Shown in pieces: positions 726 through 51,960 of a stretch of DNA of 64,000 nucleotides (positions are counted from its first letter, which is position 1; each line of letters begins with the position of its first letter). Origin of the DNA: Xestospongia bergquistia (taxonomy: Eukaryota > Porifera > Demospongiae > Haplosclerida > Petrosiidae); the NCBI GenBank assembly GCA_963965975.1, contig OZ014424.1, forward strand, positions 2,232,001 to 2,296,000, given 5' to 3'. The position numbers and the translations under genes are program-made. The notes below the pieces were generated by a model. The model was given only the letters and a program-made list of their open reading frames with translations. It did not search any database and was not told where the DNA came from.

Positions 726-731
726 TTTATT
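726..731 (-). terminator. AATAAA poly(A) signal of the 2A-Death-domain gene
   Basis: AATAAA on the minus strand lies about 80 bp past the TAA stop of the last exon at 811. It is the nearest canonical signal downstream and fits a short 3' UTR. Confidence 0.6.
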
Positions 732-810: not shown

Positions 811-2323
811 TTACTGACCTTGTCTTTTATCCTGTTGTATAAGATCATCACACGTAAGATCTAGTGAGATATCACATTTCTCTTTGACTTCATCAATCCA
901 GTCTTGACATAACTTTTGAGCAGCTAATTTCATTGGACCACCTTCACTGGAGAGGCAATGTAAGAAAATTCGACAATGTTTTTGTAACTTTGAAATGTCT
1001 TCCTTTATAAATTGCATTGTGTTTTCAAATTGATCGATGACACTGTGAACAGTTGGAGAAAGTCGGACTGATCTACTTATCAGATTATGGGAGTACATCT
1101 CTGTAGCAAACTGTTGGAGACTTGGTTTTAGCTGGTCACTTAAACGTGCAAAATGGCTTGTCAGTACACTCCTTAATACCTTATGAACTTCATGACCTCC
1201 CGACTGGTCACTTATTCTTTCTTTCTGCCTCTCTGTTAAACAAAAAGCAGAAGATAACAAGTCATCTGCGCCCATTTTTATTGGAGTAATAAAAGTTTGT
1301 AATGTATTTTACTGAACTGTTGTACTATATTGATCATTACTAGTAAAGATACTATTGTATAATGAATTATACATAGTCTATACCTTCATCTTTAGTACTA
1401 TCTACTTGTCTTTTCAGTGTAGTAGCTACATCCTTATCACCACAATTTTCAAGAGCGGAGATAAGTTTTTCCCAAGAAGGATCAGTACTATTTGTAATCC
1501 AAGATTGCAAACCTTCCTCTAAAGCAGAGTGGTAGTCTTGATCACTGCTGGCTATTTTCTTGAGTCTTATCACCTCCTCAGATGAGACACCAAGATCACC
1601 GATGAGTCCAATCCATTTATCTTTAACAATAAAACCGCTCTTAACAAGAAGTTGTAGAACATTATTAGATGTCAAGTCTGTTTGAAAAATAAGAAACATT
1701 GATTATGAGTTTCAAAATTTATTGACCTGTTTATATAATTATTTCTAAGTGTAATGAACCTTTACCTTTAACATCTAGTTGTCTTCTCATCACAGATGCT
1801 ATGTCCTCATCTCCACAGTATTCAACAGCTGAGATGAACTCTTCCCAAGAAGGAGCAGTACTGTTTGTAATCCACCATTGTAAACCTTCCTCTAAAGCAA
1901 AGTGGTAGTCTTGATTAGTGCTAGCCATTTTCATGAGTCTTCTCCTCTCCTCTAGTGATACACCTAGAAGACAAGTGAGTTTCATCCAATTTTTTTTAAC
2001 AACAAAACCACTTTTAACAAGAAGTCGCAGAGCATTACATGATGTCAACTCTAAATAAATTAAAACATCATCCCATCATTTATAGGTTATAATGTTTACT
2101 GACCAGTTTTTGGTCCAGGATTGAGTTCAACATCACCTGATAACTTCAGGAGAAGTACAAGAAACAAGACTAATGAGAATACCAAGGAATCACCACCACC
2201 CTCATTTACCAACATCAATAGTGACTTTACCCATACAGAGTTATCAGTGGTAGGAGTCTTTTTTGGTATCACATGACAATACCATAACCCAATCATAGTT
2301 CTCCATTGAATGATGTCAATCAT
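811..2323 (-). CDS. 2A-peptide protein with two Death domains (four exons)
   Basis: Predicted exons are 2323-2104, 2050-1766, 1677-1384 and 1265-811. Donors are GTCAGT, GTAAAG and GTATAG, acceptors TTATTTAG, TTCAAACAG and GGGCGCAG. Every intron is phase 1 and the joined frame is open (1254 nt, 417 aa). Residues 1-73: a short leader, a hydrophobic run (SLVFSLVLFLVLLL), then the 2A motif GDVELNPGP. Residues about 75-168 and 169-266: two Death-domain modules with the family pattern (W near helix 2, LGVS.EE, EEGLQ.WI, PSWE..I.A, GD.D.A). Residues 267-417: a helical region I do not recognise, containing GGPMKLAAQKL. If the 2A works as in known cases, the ribosome skips the Gly-Pro bond, giving a hydrophobic leader peptide and a separate cytosolic double-Death protein; without skipping the leader would act as a signal or anchor. 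An in-frame stop precedes the ATG. A sequence resembling a splice acceptor (TTTGTAG) just upstream leaves a 5' UTR exon possible. Cell-death or immune signalling is inferred from the domains. Confidence 0.82.
2111..2137 (-). other. 2A ribosome-skipping motif GDVELNPGP
   Basis: The nine codons read GGT GAT GTT GAA CTC AAT CCT GGA CCA on the minus strand, a perfect match to the 2A consensus D-V/I-E-x-N-P-G-P, preceded by LLLKLS. It lies seven bases before the exon 1 donor, so skipping would separate exon 1 from the Death-domain exons. 2A peptides are known from picornaviruses, some non-LTR elements and some invertebrate NLR-type proteins. No retroelement sequence lies beside this one. Confidence 0.9.
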
Positions 2324-4158: not shown

Positions 4159-6799
4159 ATGTCAGGAGATCCTGCTTTGTCTGATAGACCATAGTATGAC
4201 CAGTTAATAGAATTACTAGATAATTTAGTCAATTGGCTAAAAACGTTTGGTACTTTCTTAGCTGGTATTAAAAGTGAGCATATTCAAGTAATAGAACATG
4301 ACAAGAGAGAAAATGACCAACAAAAAGCTGCTCTTTTTACAAAATGGCTTCATATTCATCCTGATGCATCATGGAAGGATATACTGTCTGCATTGGAAAA
4401 GTCACAAGAATATGCTCTAGCTTCAAAAGTTTACCAAAAACTTAATACAACTTCATCTACAACTACATCTATTTCACAAGGTATTTCATAATGTAATAAT
4501 AATAATACAATTACTATGTGTAGGTTCTAGAACTTCACAAGAAAAAGTCAAAGTAGAAATTGAAGAGAAGGAAAAAGAAGTTTTGACTGCTTTACAAAGT
4601 TTACAAAGAGATTTTAGTAAGTTAATGGTAGCTGTTAGATCATCTTTTGATCATAAACTACAACATCAACAATTAGTACTAGTGGATGTGACTACATGGA
4701 TGAAGTATAGATTACACTGGGTTAAGGAACTATCTGACATTAACAAATGCAATGATTTAGATGAGCTTTTCACAATAGTACATCCATACTTTCACTTCTT
4801 AGACTGTGAACTAATTATGAATATCAGCAAAGAGTTTCTTAATGAGCAATGCTTTGAAAATAGCAAGAAAAACCTTGTCCATGAACTTAAAGAACATAGT
4901 GAGAAGGCAAAAACCCTACACTGTTTATCTACAGTAAAAGAACTTAAAGATCAATTGAAAACCATTTATTCCCCATATTTGACAAATTTATCAAACATGC
5001 CCCAAATTCAAATTGAGTTACACAATCAATGGAATGAAGCTAATATTCAAGCACTTTATCTACTAATAGGACACTTACTACCTTACAAGTCAAAACAATC
5101 AATTCTGAAGTACATTGAGATTGAGACAGGCTCAGTTCTTATTAAATACACTGTCCATGATTCAAATGCTGATTGTCTTATTGCTTATGCTCAAGGCAAG
5201 CTACAATTCATCCGTCTCATTGGTATATTTGCTCTAACAATCGACAGTCATCAAATTCTCAAAGAAGATGAGAATATAAACTTCTCTTTTGAGTCAGCTC
5301 TATTTGAAGCTGCAGAAGCTGGTCATAATGAAGCTGTACAATCTATTCTCAAATTAAGAGATGATGTAGACCACTGCAATGAAGAAGGCAGAACACCACT
5401 TATGGTAGGTAGTGAAGGTGGGCATGAACAAGTTGTACAAACACTAGTATCAGCTGGAACTAATGTTAACATACAAGATAATATAGGCAGGACAGCACTT
5501 ATGATAGCAAGCGAAAATGGTCATACCCAGGTCATTGAGCTACTACTTAGGGAGCATGCAGACATTAATATTAAGGAAGAAGATGGATGGACTGCCCTAA
5601 TGTTAGCCAGTCAAAATGGTCATATCCGTGTTGCTGAACTACTAGTCAAAGAGGATGCAGATATTAATATTCAGGAAGAAAGTGGATGGACTGCCCTAAT
5701 GCTAGCCAGCCAAAATGGTCATATTCACATTGCTAAACTACTAATAAAAGAGGATGCTGACATTAATATTCAGGAAGAAGATGGATATACTGCCCTAATT
5801 CTAGCATGTCAAAATGGTCATATCTATGTTGCTGACTTACTACTTAAACAGAATGCAGACATTGATACTCAAACAATAAATGGACGGACTGCCCTAATGC
5901 TAGCTAACCAAAATGGTCATACTCAGGTTGTAGAACTACTGCTTAAAGAGCATGCAGATGTTAACATTCAGGACAAAAATGAAGGGACTGCTCTAATGCT
6001 AGCCAGTCAAAACGGTCATGCTGAAGTTGTTGAATTACTACTCAAAGCGGATGCAGACGTTAACATTCAAGGAAAAAGTGGAGTCACTGCCTTAATGTTA
6101 GCCAGCCAAAATGGTCATACTGAGGTTGCAGAACTACTACTCAAAGATAACGCAGATGTTAACATCCAGAGGGAAAATGGAGTGACTGCCCTAATGCTAG
6201 CCAGTCTCTATGGTCATGCTCAGGTTGCTGAAGTACTACTCAAAGATGATGCAGACGTTAACATTCAGGAAGTAAAAGGAAGAACTGCCTTAATGCTAGC
6301 TAGTCGAAAAGGTCATATAGAGGTTGCTGGACTACTACTTAATGTGGATGCAGATGTTAACATTCAGGAAAAGAATGGAGTGACTGCTTTAATGCTAGCC
6401 AGTCAAAATGGTCATAGTCAAGTTACTGAACTATTACTCAAAGCAGATACAAATGTTAACATTCAGGCAAAGAATGGTGTTACTGCCCTAATGATAGCCA
6501 GTCAAAACAGTTATATCAAAGTTGCTGAACTACTACTCAAAGCAGATGCCGACGTGAACATTCAGGAAGAAGAAGGACGGACTGCCCTAATGCTAGCCAG
6601 TAAAAATGGTCATATCAAGATTACTGAACTACTGCTCAAAACAGATGCAGACATGAACATTCAGGCAAAGAATGGAGCAACAGCAGTAAAGCTAGCTAGT
6701 CAAAACGGTCATACCCAAATAGTTGAACTACTAGCAAATGAGCTTGTAGACAACGATGTTCAGGGAAAAACTGAATTGACTACCCTTTGTTCAATCTAG
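4159..6799 (+). CDS. DD-ANK paralogue A (long second exon intact, stop in first exon)
   Basis: Exon 1 is 4159-4480, a 43-bp intron is 4481-4523 (GTATTT...TGTAG, phase 1), and exon 2 is 4524-6799. Exon 1 encodes the Death-like module (LLDNLVNW, GTFLAGIKSEHIQVIE, ALFTKWLHIHPDASW, ASKVYQKL), but codon 12 is TAG where paralogues have AAG. Exon 2 is open throughout: a charged coiled-coil-like start, the conserved family domain (DELFTIVHPYF, NMPQIQIELHN, SILKYIEIETGS) and about 15 ankyrin repeats of 33 residues. It ends soon after the ELVD repeat and lacks the roughly 300-residue distal region and basic tail of copy G. It may be translated from an internal ATG near 4625, or be a recent pseudogene. 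A candidate AATAAA is at 6993. Confidence 0.7.
4481..4523 (+). other. 43-bp phase-1 intron of copy A
   Basis: CAAG before GTATTT at the donor and TGTGTAG at the acceptor are shared with B (8479-8521, 43 bp), and related introns are in C2 (45 bp), E and G (47 bp), H (48 bp) and I (51 bp). Reading through A's copy meets TAA after three codons, so splicing is needed here. Confidence 0.8.
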
Positions 6800-51735: not shown

Positions 51736-51960
51736 CAATTGATGTCATTCAATGGAGAGCTATAATTGGATTATGGTATTGTTATCTGATACCATATACT
51801 GCTAAAAAGACTCTCTTTACAGTTGATACTGCAGGATAGATAAAGTCACTATTGAAGTCAGGAGATGAAGGTGGAAGTACCTTAGTATTCTCTTTAGTGT
51901 TGTTTCTTCTACTTCTCGTTTTATCAAGTGATATATTGAACTCAACAATGATCAATTAGC
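51736..51960 (+). pseudogene. Relic of the 2A-bearing first exon
   Basis: Reads IDVIQWRAIIGLWYCYLIP, then an in-frame TAG, then EGGSTLVFSLVLFLLLLVL and SSD, matching exon 1 of the 2A-Death-domain gene at 2104-2323 residue for residue in most places. The acceptor-like GATTGTTTGCAG before it matches GATTGTTTGTAG there. The start codon is lost and a 2-bp insertion after GAT shifts the 2A codons; the DNA still spells GAT-AT-ATTGAACTCAAC before diverging. It lies in plus orientation, 2.6 kb after copy G, with no Death-domain exon following. Confidence 0.8.

Follow-up and report, generated by a model that had tools for sequence, protein, structure and literature searches.

Does a sponge gene whose first exon carries a 2A motif yield one protein or two, and is that exon peculiar to the gene or one of a family? 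2A ribosome skipping is best known from viruses. The locus that raises the question lies near the start of the window, i.e., the whole 64,000-nucleotide stretch of Xestospongia bergquistia DNA that was analyzed, and is predicted to be a gene of four exons on the minus strand. The joined coding sequence is open and 1,221 nt long (406 residues plus a stop), and its introns of 53, 88, and 151 nt are all GT..AG and phase 1. The original prediction placed a hydrophobic run and then a perfect octapeptide, DVELNPGP, in the exon from 2323 to 2104, and both are present. It also joined this exon in frame to two Death exons, and the join is confirmed on the sequence, with splicing predicted from a phase 1 donor (ACTG/GTCAGT) at the end of exon 1 to an acceptor (TTTAG/AGTT) at 2050. 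It overlooked a fourth exon (1232 to 811) that belongs to the joined coding sequence, the family of related leaders, and the extended conserved stretch at the N terminus of the leader. The features are as follows.

2104 to 2323, minus strand: 2A leader exon (exon 1), 220 nt, ATG at 2323, phase 1 end
2141 to 2185, minus strand: hydrophobic run, leader residues 47 to 61, 15-residue Kyte-Doolittle mean of 2.93
2111 to 2134, minus strand: 2A/StopGo octapeptide DVELNPGP, preceded by the hexapeptide LLKLSG, with the skip expected at Gly70/Pro71
2051 to 2103, minus strand: predicted intron 1, 53 nt, GT..AG, whose retention would lead to an in-frame stop
1766 to 2050, minus strand: Death domain exon (exon 2), phase 1-1, with at least 97 matching places in the genome
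1384 to 1677, minus strand: second Death domain exon (exon 3), phase 1-1, 65% identical to exon 2
811 to 1232, minus strand: C-terminal (CT) exon (exon 4), stop TAA at 813 to 811, donor-like CAAG/GTCAGT across its end (819/818)
726 to 731, minus strand: AATAAA, a possible polyadenylation signal, 79 nt past the stop
51738 to 51935, plus strand: a decayed second leader exon, with TAG inside and an unreadable octapeptide

Exon 1 encodes a leader of 73 residues, consisting of an N-terminal part starting MIDIIQWRTMIGLWYC, the hydrophobic run, and SGDVELNPGP-KT. A skip at Gly70/Pro71 is predicted to divide the product of the gene after residue 70, separating the leader from a Death-Death-CT protein of 336 residues. 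The octapeptide conforms to D(V/I)ExNPGP, and the hexapeptide before it has the form of an upstream StopGo motif, being L-rich and ending in SG before a D at p12. The same layout recurs in 32 distinct leaders, all of which were chosen by presence of the octapeptide: the hexapeptide in front of the octapeptide is L-rich, with SG or AG at its end, in 32/32, and the best 15-residue hydropathy window is 2.85 to 3.72 in every one. The distance from the hydrophobic run to the skip Gly is nine residues in 28 leaders, eight in three, and seven in one, and the length to that Gly is 65 to 77 residues (70 in the window leader). By hydropathy, the leader thus has the arrangement of SpNLR2A, the 2A-bearing NLRs of the sea urchin Strongylocentrotus purpuratus, in which the 2A motif lies near the N terminus right after a hydrophobic stretch. 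A phase 1 GT directly follows the leader in all 32 cases, and because this donor is so constant the leader could be a module exchangeable between receptors. An acceptor of a Death exon was recognized by a narrow pattern after 16 of 35 leader places (a set that includes L039 and L040, outside the leader family), and 15 of the 16 introns so delimited contain an in-frame stop.

The motif is frequent in the 146-Mb genome. A DNA pattern for DVELNPGP has 57 matches, with none for the reversed control, and the wider pattern for D(V/I)ExNPGP has 161 matches, again with none for the reversed pattern; chance occurrence of the octapeptide is ruled out by the latter comparison. A protein search with the leader, in which 150 of 179 candidates were scored, found at least 148 places at an E value of ≤0.001, including the window leader, and 141 of these 148 are stop free. 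Of the 88 motif places on contigs C1 to C8, 24 do not coincide with any leader match. Divergence beyond the reach of a similarity search may have hidden some leaders among these 24; behind two of them (C1:13817856 and C1:27475124) lies either a family Death exon or a NACHT domain. No viral relative of the leader was confirmed among the 98 pattern stretches examined.

The leaders are found together with exons of receptor-like genes. A family Death exon follows within 2.5 kb on the same strand in 74 of the 148 cases and a NACHT domain within 8 kb on the same strand in 47, with both in 30 and neither found in 57. Counted from the other side, at least 95 places match the NACHT profile, and a leader lies within 8 kb upstream on the same strand for 48/95 and on the opposite strand for 1/95. 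The other 47 NACHT exons have no leader; 29 of these 47 are on C2, in a cluster at 8.83 to 9.15 Mb. In 17 of the 25 loci read, the first leader is followed by an ankyrin-type exon of 955 to 2,417 amino acids. The count relies on matching a plain repeat pattern, and for two of these 17 loci (L012 and L016), the ones also scanned with Pfam, ankyrin was confirmed. Of the leaders with neither Death nor NACHT found behind them, those of L003, L006 to L008, L012, L022, L025, L032, and L033 were read (L008 and L033 share one leader), and ankyrin exons are present in L012, L022, and L025.

Individual loci differ in what follows the leader. L029 has a leader, a family Death exon, and a NACHT domain (2.3e-12). 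Its large exon has no LRR match by Pfam at an E value of ≤0.01 and a match to NLRC4_HD2 (0.0027) below the cut-off; it was the one NACHT gene scanned, and with the LRR scan covering L029 alone, the NACHT genes of the family are candidate NLRs. L030 has a leader, a Death exon, another Death exon that narrowly misses the cut-off (21.4 bits), and a NACHT domain with one internal stop, and the leader at C11:451324 has, by coordinates, two family Death exons before the NACHT domain. L031 combines a leader and a Death exon with later exons that look Death-like by eye and lack a Pfam match; the same applies to the next exons of L032 and L033, and a later exon of L033 matches Death at an E value of 0.001, below the cut-off.

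Against this background, the window gene is not a typical member. It has no NACHT match and no frame of ≥300 amino acids within 7.7 kb downstream, whereas a giant ankyrin exon occurs in 17 of the 25 loci read, and by the absence of NACHT it falls outside both the NLRs and SpNLR2A. Its Death exon is doubled, and the ankyrin exon of its C14 relatives is absent. The pairing of a 2A leader with a double Death protein had been singled out as the special point of the locus; this view is not supported by the genome-wide comparison, in which the window gene is an outlier among 148 leader matches, many of them heading Death-NACHT or Death-ankyrin genes. Nor is the doubling unique, as two Death exons also follow the leaders at C11:451324 and L030 (the second one in L030 just under the cut-off). 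The window gene is possibly a remnant; on the other hand, it has open exons, and its Death and CT exons have dN/dS values of 0.18 to 0.67 against paralogues.

The claim that the gene encodes two Death domains holds for exon 3 (Pfam Death E value, 3.9e-6; 27.4 bits against a cut-off of 22.6). Exon 2 alone stays below that cut-off (E values, 0.017 and 0.0095; 15.7 and 16.5 bits), despite its 65% identity to exon 3. When relatives of exons 2 and 3 were aligned, Death was found at an E value of ≤0.01 for 7 of 11 members. AlphaFold, run on the single sequence of exon 3, gave a model with six helices (pLDDT, 79.5), for which the 15 top-ranking PDB matches are all death domains, including those of FADD, Fas, TNFR1, and DR3 (TM, 0.66 to 0.74; lowest Foldseek E value, 0.059). 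A six-helix death fold is therefore predicted by this model for exon 3. PDB sequence searches with the two Death exons gave six matches and one match, all at E values of ≥0.13 and with no death domain among them. Exon 4 has scattered weak Pfam matches (Mating_N, 0.0093; ACDC in 12/18 members, best 0.0017; CARD in 1/18, 0.089), its PDB profile search gave four weak, unrelated matches and no classification, and its structure model is poor (pLDDT, 59.1).

The end of exon 4, CAAG/GTCAGTAA, is at once an in-frame stop and a donor-like site. Such an overlap between the stop of the CT exon and a donor, AAG/GTCAGTAA or GTCAGTGA, was seen in five genes (L009, which is the window gene, L010, L011, L014, and L026; L014 is the same gene in L028), each with AATAAA 79 to 81 nt past the stop. 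Four of the five continue into ankyrin exons, and the overlap possibly offers a choice between a short isoform and an ankyrin form.

Other loci in the window and elsewhere share parts of this anatomy. The neighboring gene on the opposite strand (window positions 4195 to 6799, plus strand) has a Death exon (Pfam E value, 8.3e-7), a long ankyrin-matching frame (C14:2237468), and a TAG just upstream of the frame of the Death exon; the leader protein search gave no match there. Two LINE-like elements, L038 (C4:8603800-8607200) and L039 (C1:10942000-10946000), combine a 2A octapeptide with a hydrophobic run and a PHD finger, and L039 also has a weak reverse transcriptase match. Ten 2A places with the L038-type DNA pattern lie on C4 at 8.60 to 8.91 Mb, of which one was read. 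At offset 793 of L040 (C7:5978300-5981500), a different, short 2A leader, CGDIESNPGPG, is followed by a donor-like phase 1 site, GTAAGA; this region has three motif places in 25 kb, and a frame about 2 kb downstream looks protein kinase-like by eye.

The closest functional precedent is the leader of a sea urchin NLR, which skips and acts as a signal when unskipped (Roulston et al. 2016; PMC4981915). The mechanism suggested in the original prediction, with a cytosolic product after a skip and entry into the secretory route otherwise, is the one given there for sea urchin NLRs, and for the sponge gene it is a hypothesis. In the part of that paper available to us, skipping in vitro is put at about 80%, as a qualitative estimate, and once the skip was disabled, a reporter in HeLa cells went chiefly to the Golgi. 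As in the sponge, the octapeptide of SpNLR2A lies at or near the N terminus of Death/NACHT innate immune receptors. However, the sea urchin leaders tabulated there have 26 amino acids, compared with 65 to 77 up to the skip Gly and a conserved N-terminal part here. The same part of the paper names two classes of 2A carrier, retrotransposons and NLRs, whereas ankyrin genes also carry the leader in the sponge and the window gene lacks NACHT. In the available text of a catalog of StopGo motifs (PMC12846837), the LLLLSG-like class comprises motifs 2 and 6, with D at p12, and a motif 6 example supported StopGo activity in vitro; in the F2A complex described there, the L-rich stretch clusters in the exit tunnel. 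Like the sponge leaders, these motifs have the form D(V/I)ExNPGP, with D at p12 behind an L-rich hexapeptide whose last two residues are SG or AG, but they were cataloged in RNA viruses, in contrast to the cellular receptor-like genes found here. The same text calls StopGo use in cellular genes rare, and a caution from another partly available source is that a match to D(V/I)ExNPGP does not guarantee skipping (PMC11512398).

Among sponge NLRs as far as they are described in the accessible text of PMC12909245, L029 and L030 are comparable in having a Death and a NACHT domain behind the leader, with no LRR detected in L029. The main text of that paper has no occurrence of “npgp” or “ribosom.” The literature matches listed included none that dealt with 2A leaders on receptors of sponges; an overview of 2A sequences from eukaryotes and viruses (Rao et al. 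2025; Cell Rep 44:115822), known here through its citation in PMC12846837, may include them, and an earlier report of 2A leaders on sponge receptors is possible.

We favor, with a probability of roughly 0.6, the reading that the exon is a StopGo leader that yields a peptide of about 70 amino acids and a cytosolic receptor when skipped and directs the unskipped product to membranes. An L-rich-class StopGo leader would stand at the 5′ end of a receptor-like gene family (Death with NACHT, ankyrin, or other exons) and would have spread together with these putative immune receptor genes as a phase 1 module. If the window gene is transcribed and spliced as predicted, a ribosome reaching Gly70/Pro71 would usually skip the bond, freeing the 70-amino-acid leader peptide and making the Death-Death-CT protein of 336 amino acids separately in the cytosol. 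The ribosomal exit tunnel holds about 30 residues or more. Because the hydrophobic run ends 7 to 9 residues before the skip Gly (about nine in the window leader), it should still be inside the tunnel when the skip is decided, and the sea urchin-type scheme would therefore apply, in which a skip means no signal and a failure means a signal. After a failed skip, the run would emerge joined to the receptor, which would take the endoplasmic reticulum/membrane route. At residues 47 to 61, the run is internal, where a classical signal peptide would be N-terminal, and its role may be confined to the tunnel.

One competing reading is that the run is a plain signal anchor or transmembrane segment, that NPGP does not cause skipping in this animal, and that the receptors are membrane proteins. 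The hydrophobic run in 32/32 leaders would fit such a role, as would the transmembrane NLRs reported for sponges in the accessible text of PMC12909245, but the fate of the octapeptide makes this reading improbable. Motif retention was counted on C1 to C8 only, for which all motif places were listed, on 72 of the 148 leaders, which had been sampled by protein similarity. The exact octapeptide is intact in 64 of the 72, one of which has an in-frame stop (C1:4066385), and it is lost mostly in broken copies, a pattern that a plain anchor leaves unexplained. The eight nonexact leaders comprise two with G at p12 and six that are broken, and four of the six have in-frame stops by similarity search alone; the motif of L036 is lost in its frame, and L037 has NPSP in a disrupted frame. 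The two G variants, L034 (C4:754000) and L035 (C4:785400), are open leaders with GVELNPGP, in which G replaces D at the first octapeptide position, and are natural variants, possibly with altered skipping. Octapeptide position 4 is L in 60 of the 64 and V, I, F, or R in one each, and position 2 is V or I, a variation conditioned by the definition of the 64 by the same consensus. The idea that the leader exon is a non-LTR retrotransposon fragment lying by chance beside Death exons is far less probable still. Reportedly, APE-type non-LTR retrotransposons bear 2A sequences (work attributed to Odon et al., 2013), with an octapeptide and a leucine-rich stretch as here, but the window gene has Death exons in place of retrotransposon domains, and its exons gave no Pfam match to reverse transcriptase, endonuclease, or PHD. 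The same genome does contain LINE-like elements, L038 and L039, in which DIELNPGP or DVESNPGP occurs together with a hydrophobic run and a PHD finger; nevertheless, the family leader resembles them, by eye, in run and motif only. The same-strand receptor exons behind many of the 148 leader matches and the phase 1 donor in 32/32 distinct leaders led us to reject a retrotransposon remnant as the whole story, and an old descent of the leader from a retrotransposon-type element is possible.

A different emphasis would make the freed leader the functional product itself, a tail-anchored membrane peptide with a cytosolic QWR..IG.W part, produced one-to-one with the receptor, the targeting of which would be secondary. 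The N-terminal part of the leader is under purifying selection: among ten representatives, its dN/dS is 0.38 (0.25 to 0.57), with 0.22 (0.11 to 0.38) for the hydrophobic part, and M1, I2, Q6, R8, and W14 are identical in all ten. (The low value of 0.09 for the 2A part is conditioned and is not evidence, because the 32 leaders used for dN/dS were found by the octapeptide.) A separate product would account for this conservation, for a run only 7 to 9 residues from the new C terminus of a 65- to 77-amino-acid peptide, and for the contrast with the tabulated 26-amino-acid leaders of the sea urchin (PMC4981915, as far as available). The N-terminal conservation could also serve signal-anchor topology or skipping itself, and we regard a mainly peptide-centered function as unlikely, though less so than either of the preceding readings. 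Under the preferred StopGo reading, too, frequent skipping would give the freed peptide a tail-anchor layout with its conserved N-terminal part facing the cytosol, because the run would lie at most nine residues from the new C terminus.

A broader proposal, which we hold only as a doubtful speculation, combines the two: a StopGo leader common to about half of the NACHT genes found and to the giant Death-ankyrin genes would cause their products to be translated in two pieces, the freed leader of 65 to 77 amino acids would be a conserved, tail-anchored peptide with one copy per receptor, and skipping would set both receptor location and membrane partner across the immune repertoire. As a guess, the published “transmembrane” sponge NLRs may in part be a misreading of such a leader.

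If the StopGo reading is true, about 148 leaders, many of them on receptor-like genes, would make StopGo a normal part of animal gene expression, and the sea urchin case would not be isolated. The family would then make it possible to test directly if partial skipping distributes receptors between the cytosol and membranes, and its many natural variants of one leader would provide material for measuring what tunes skipping.
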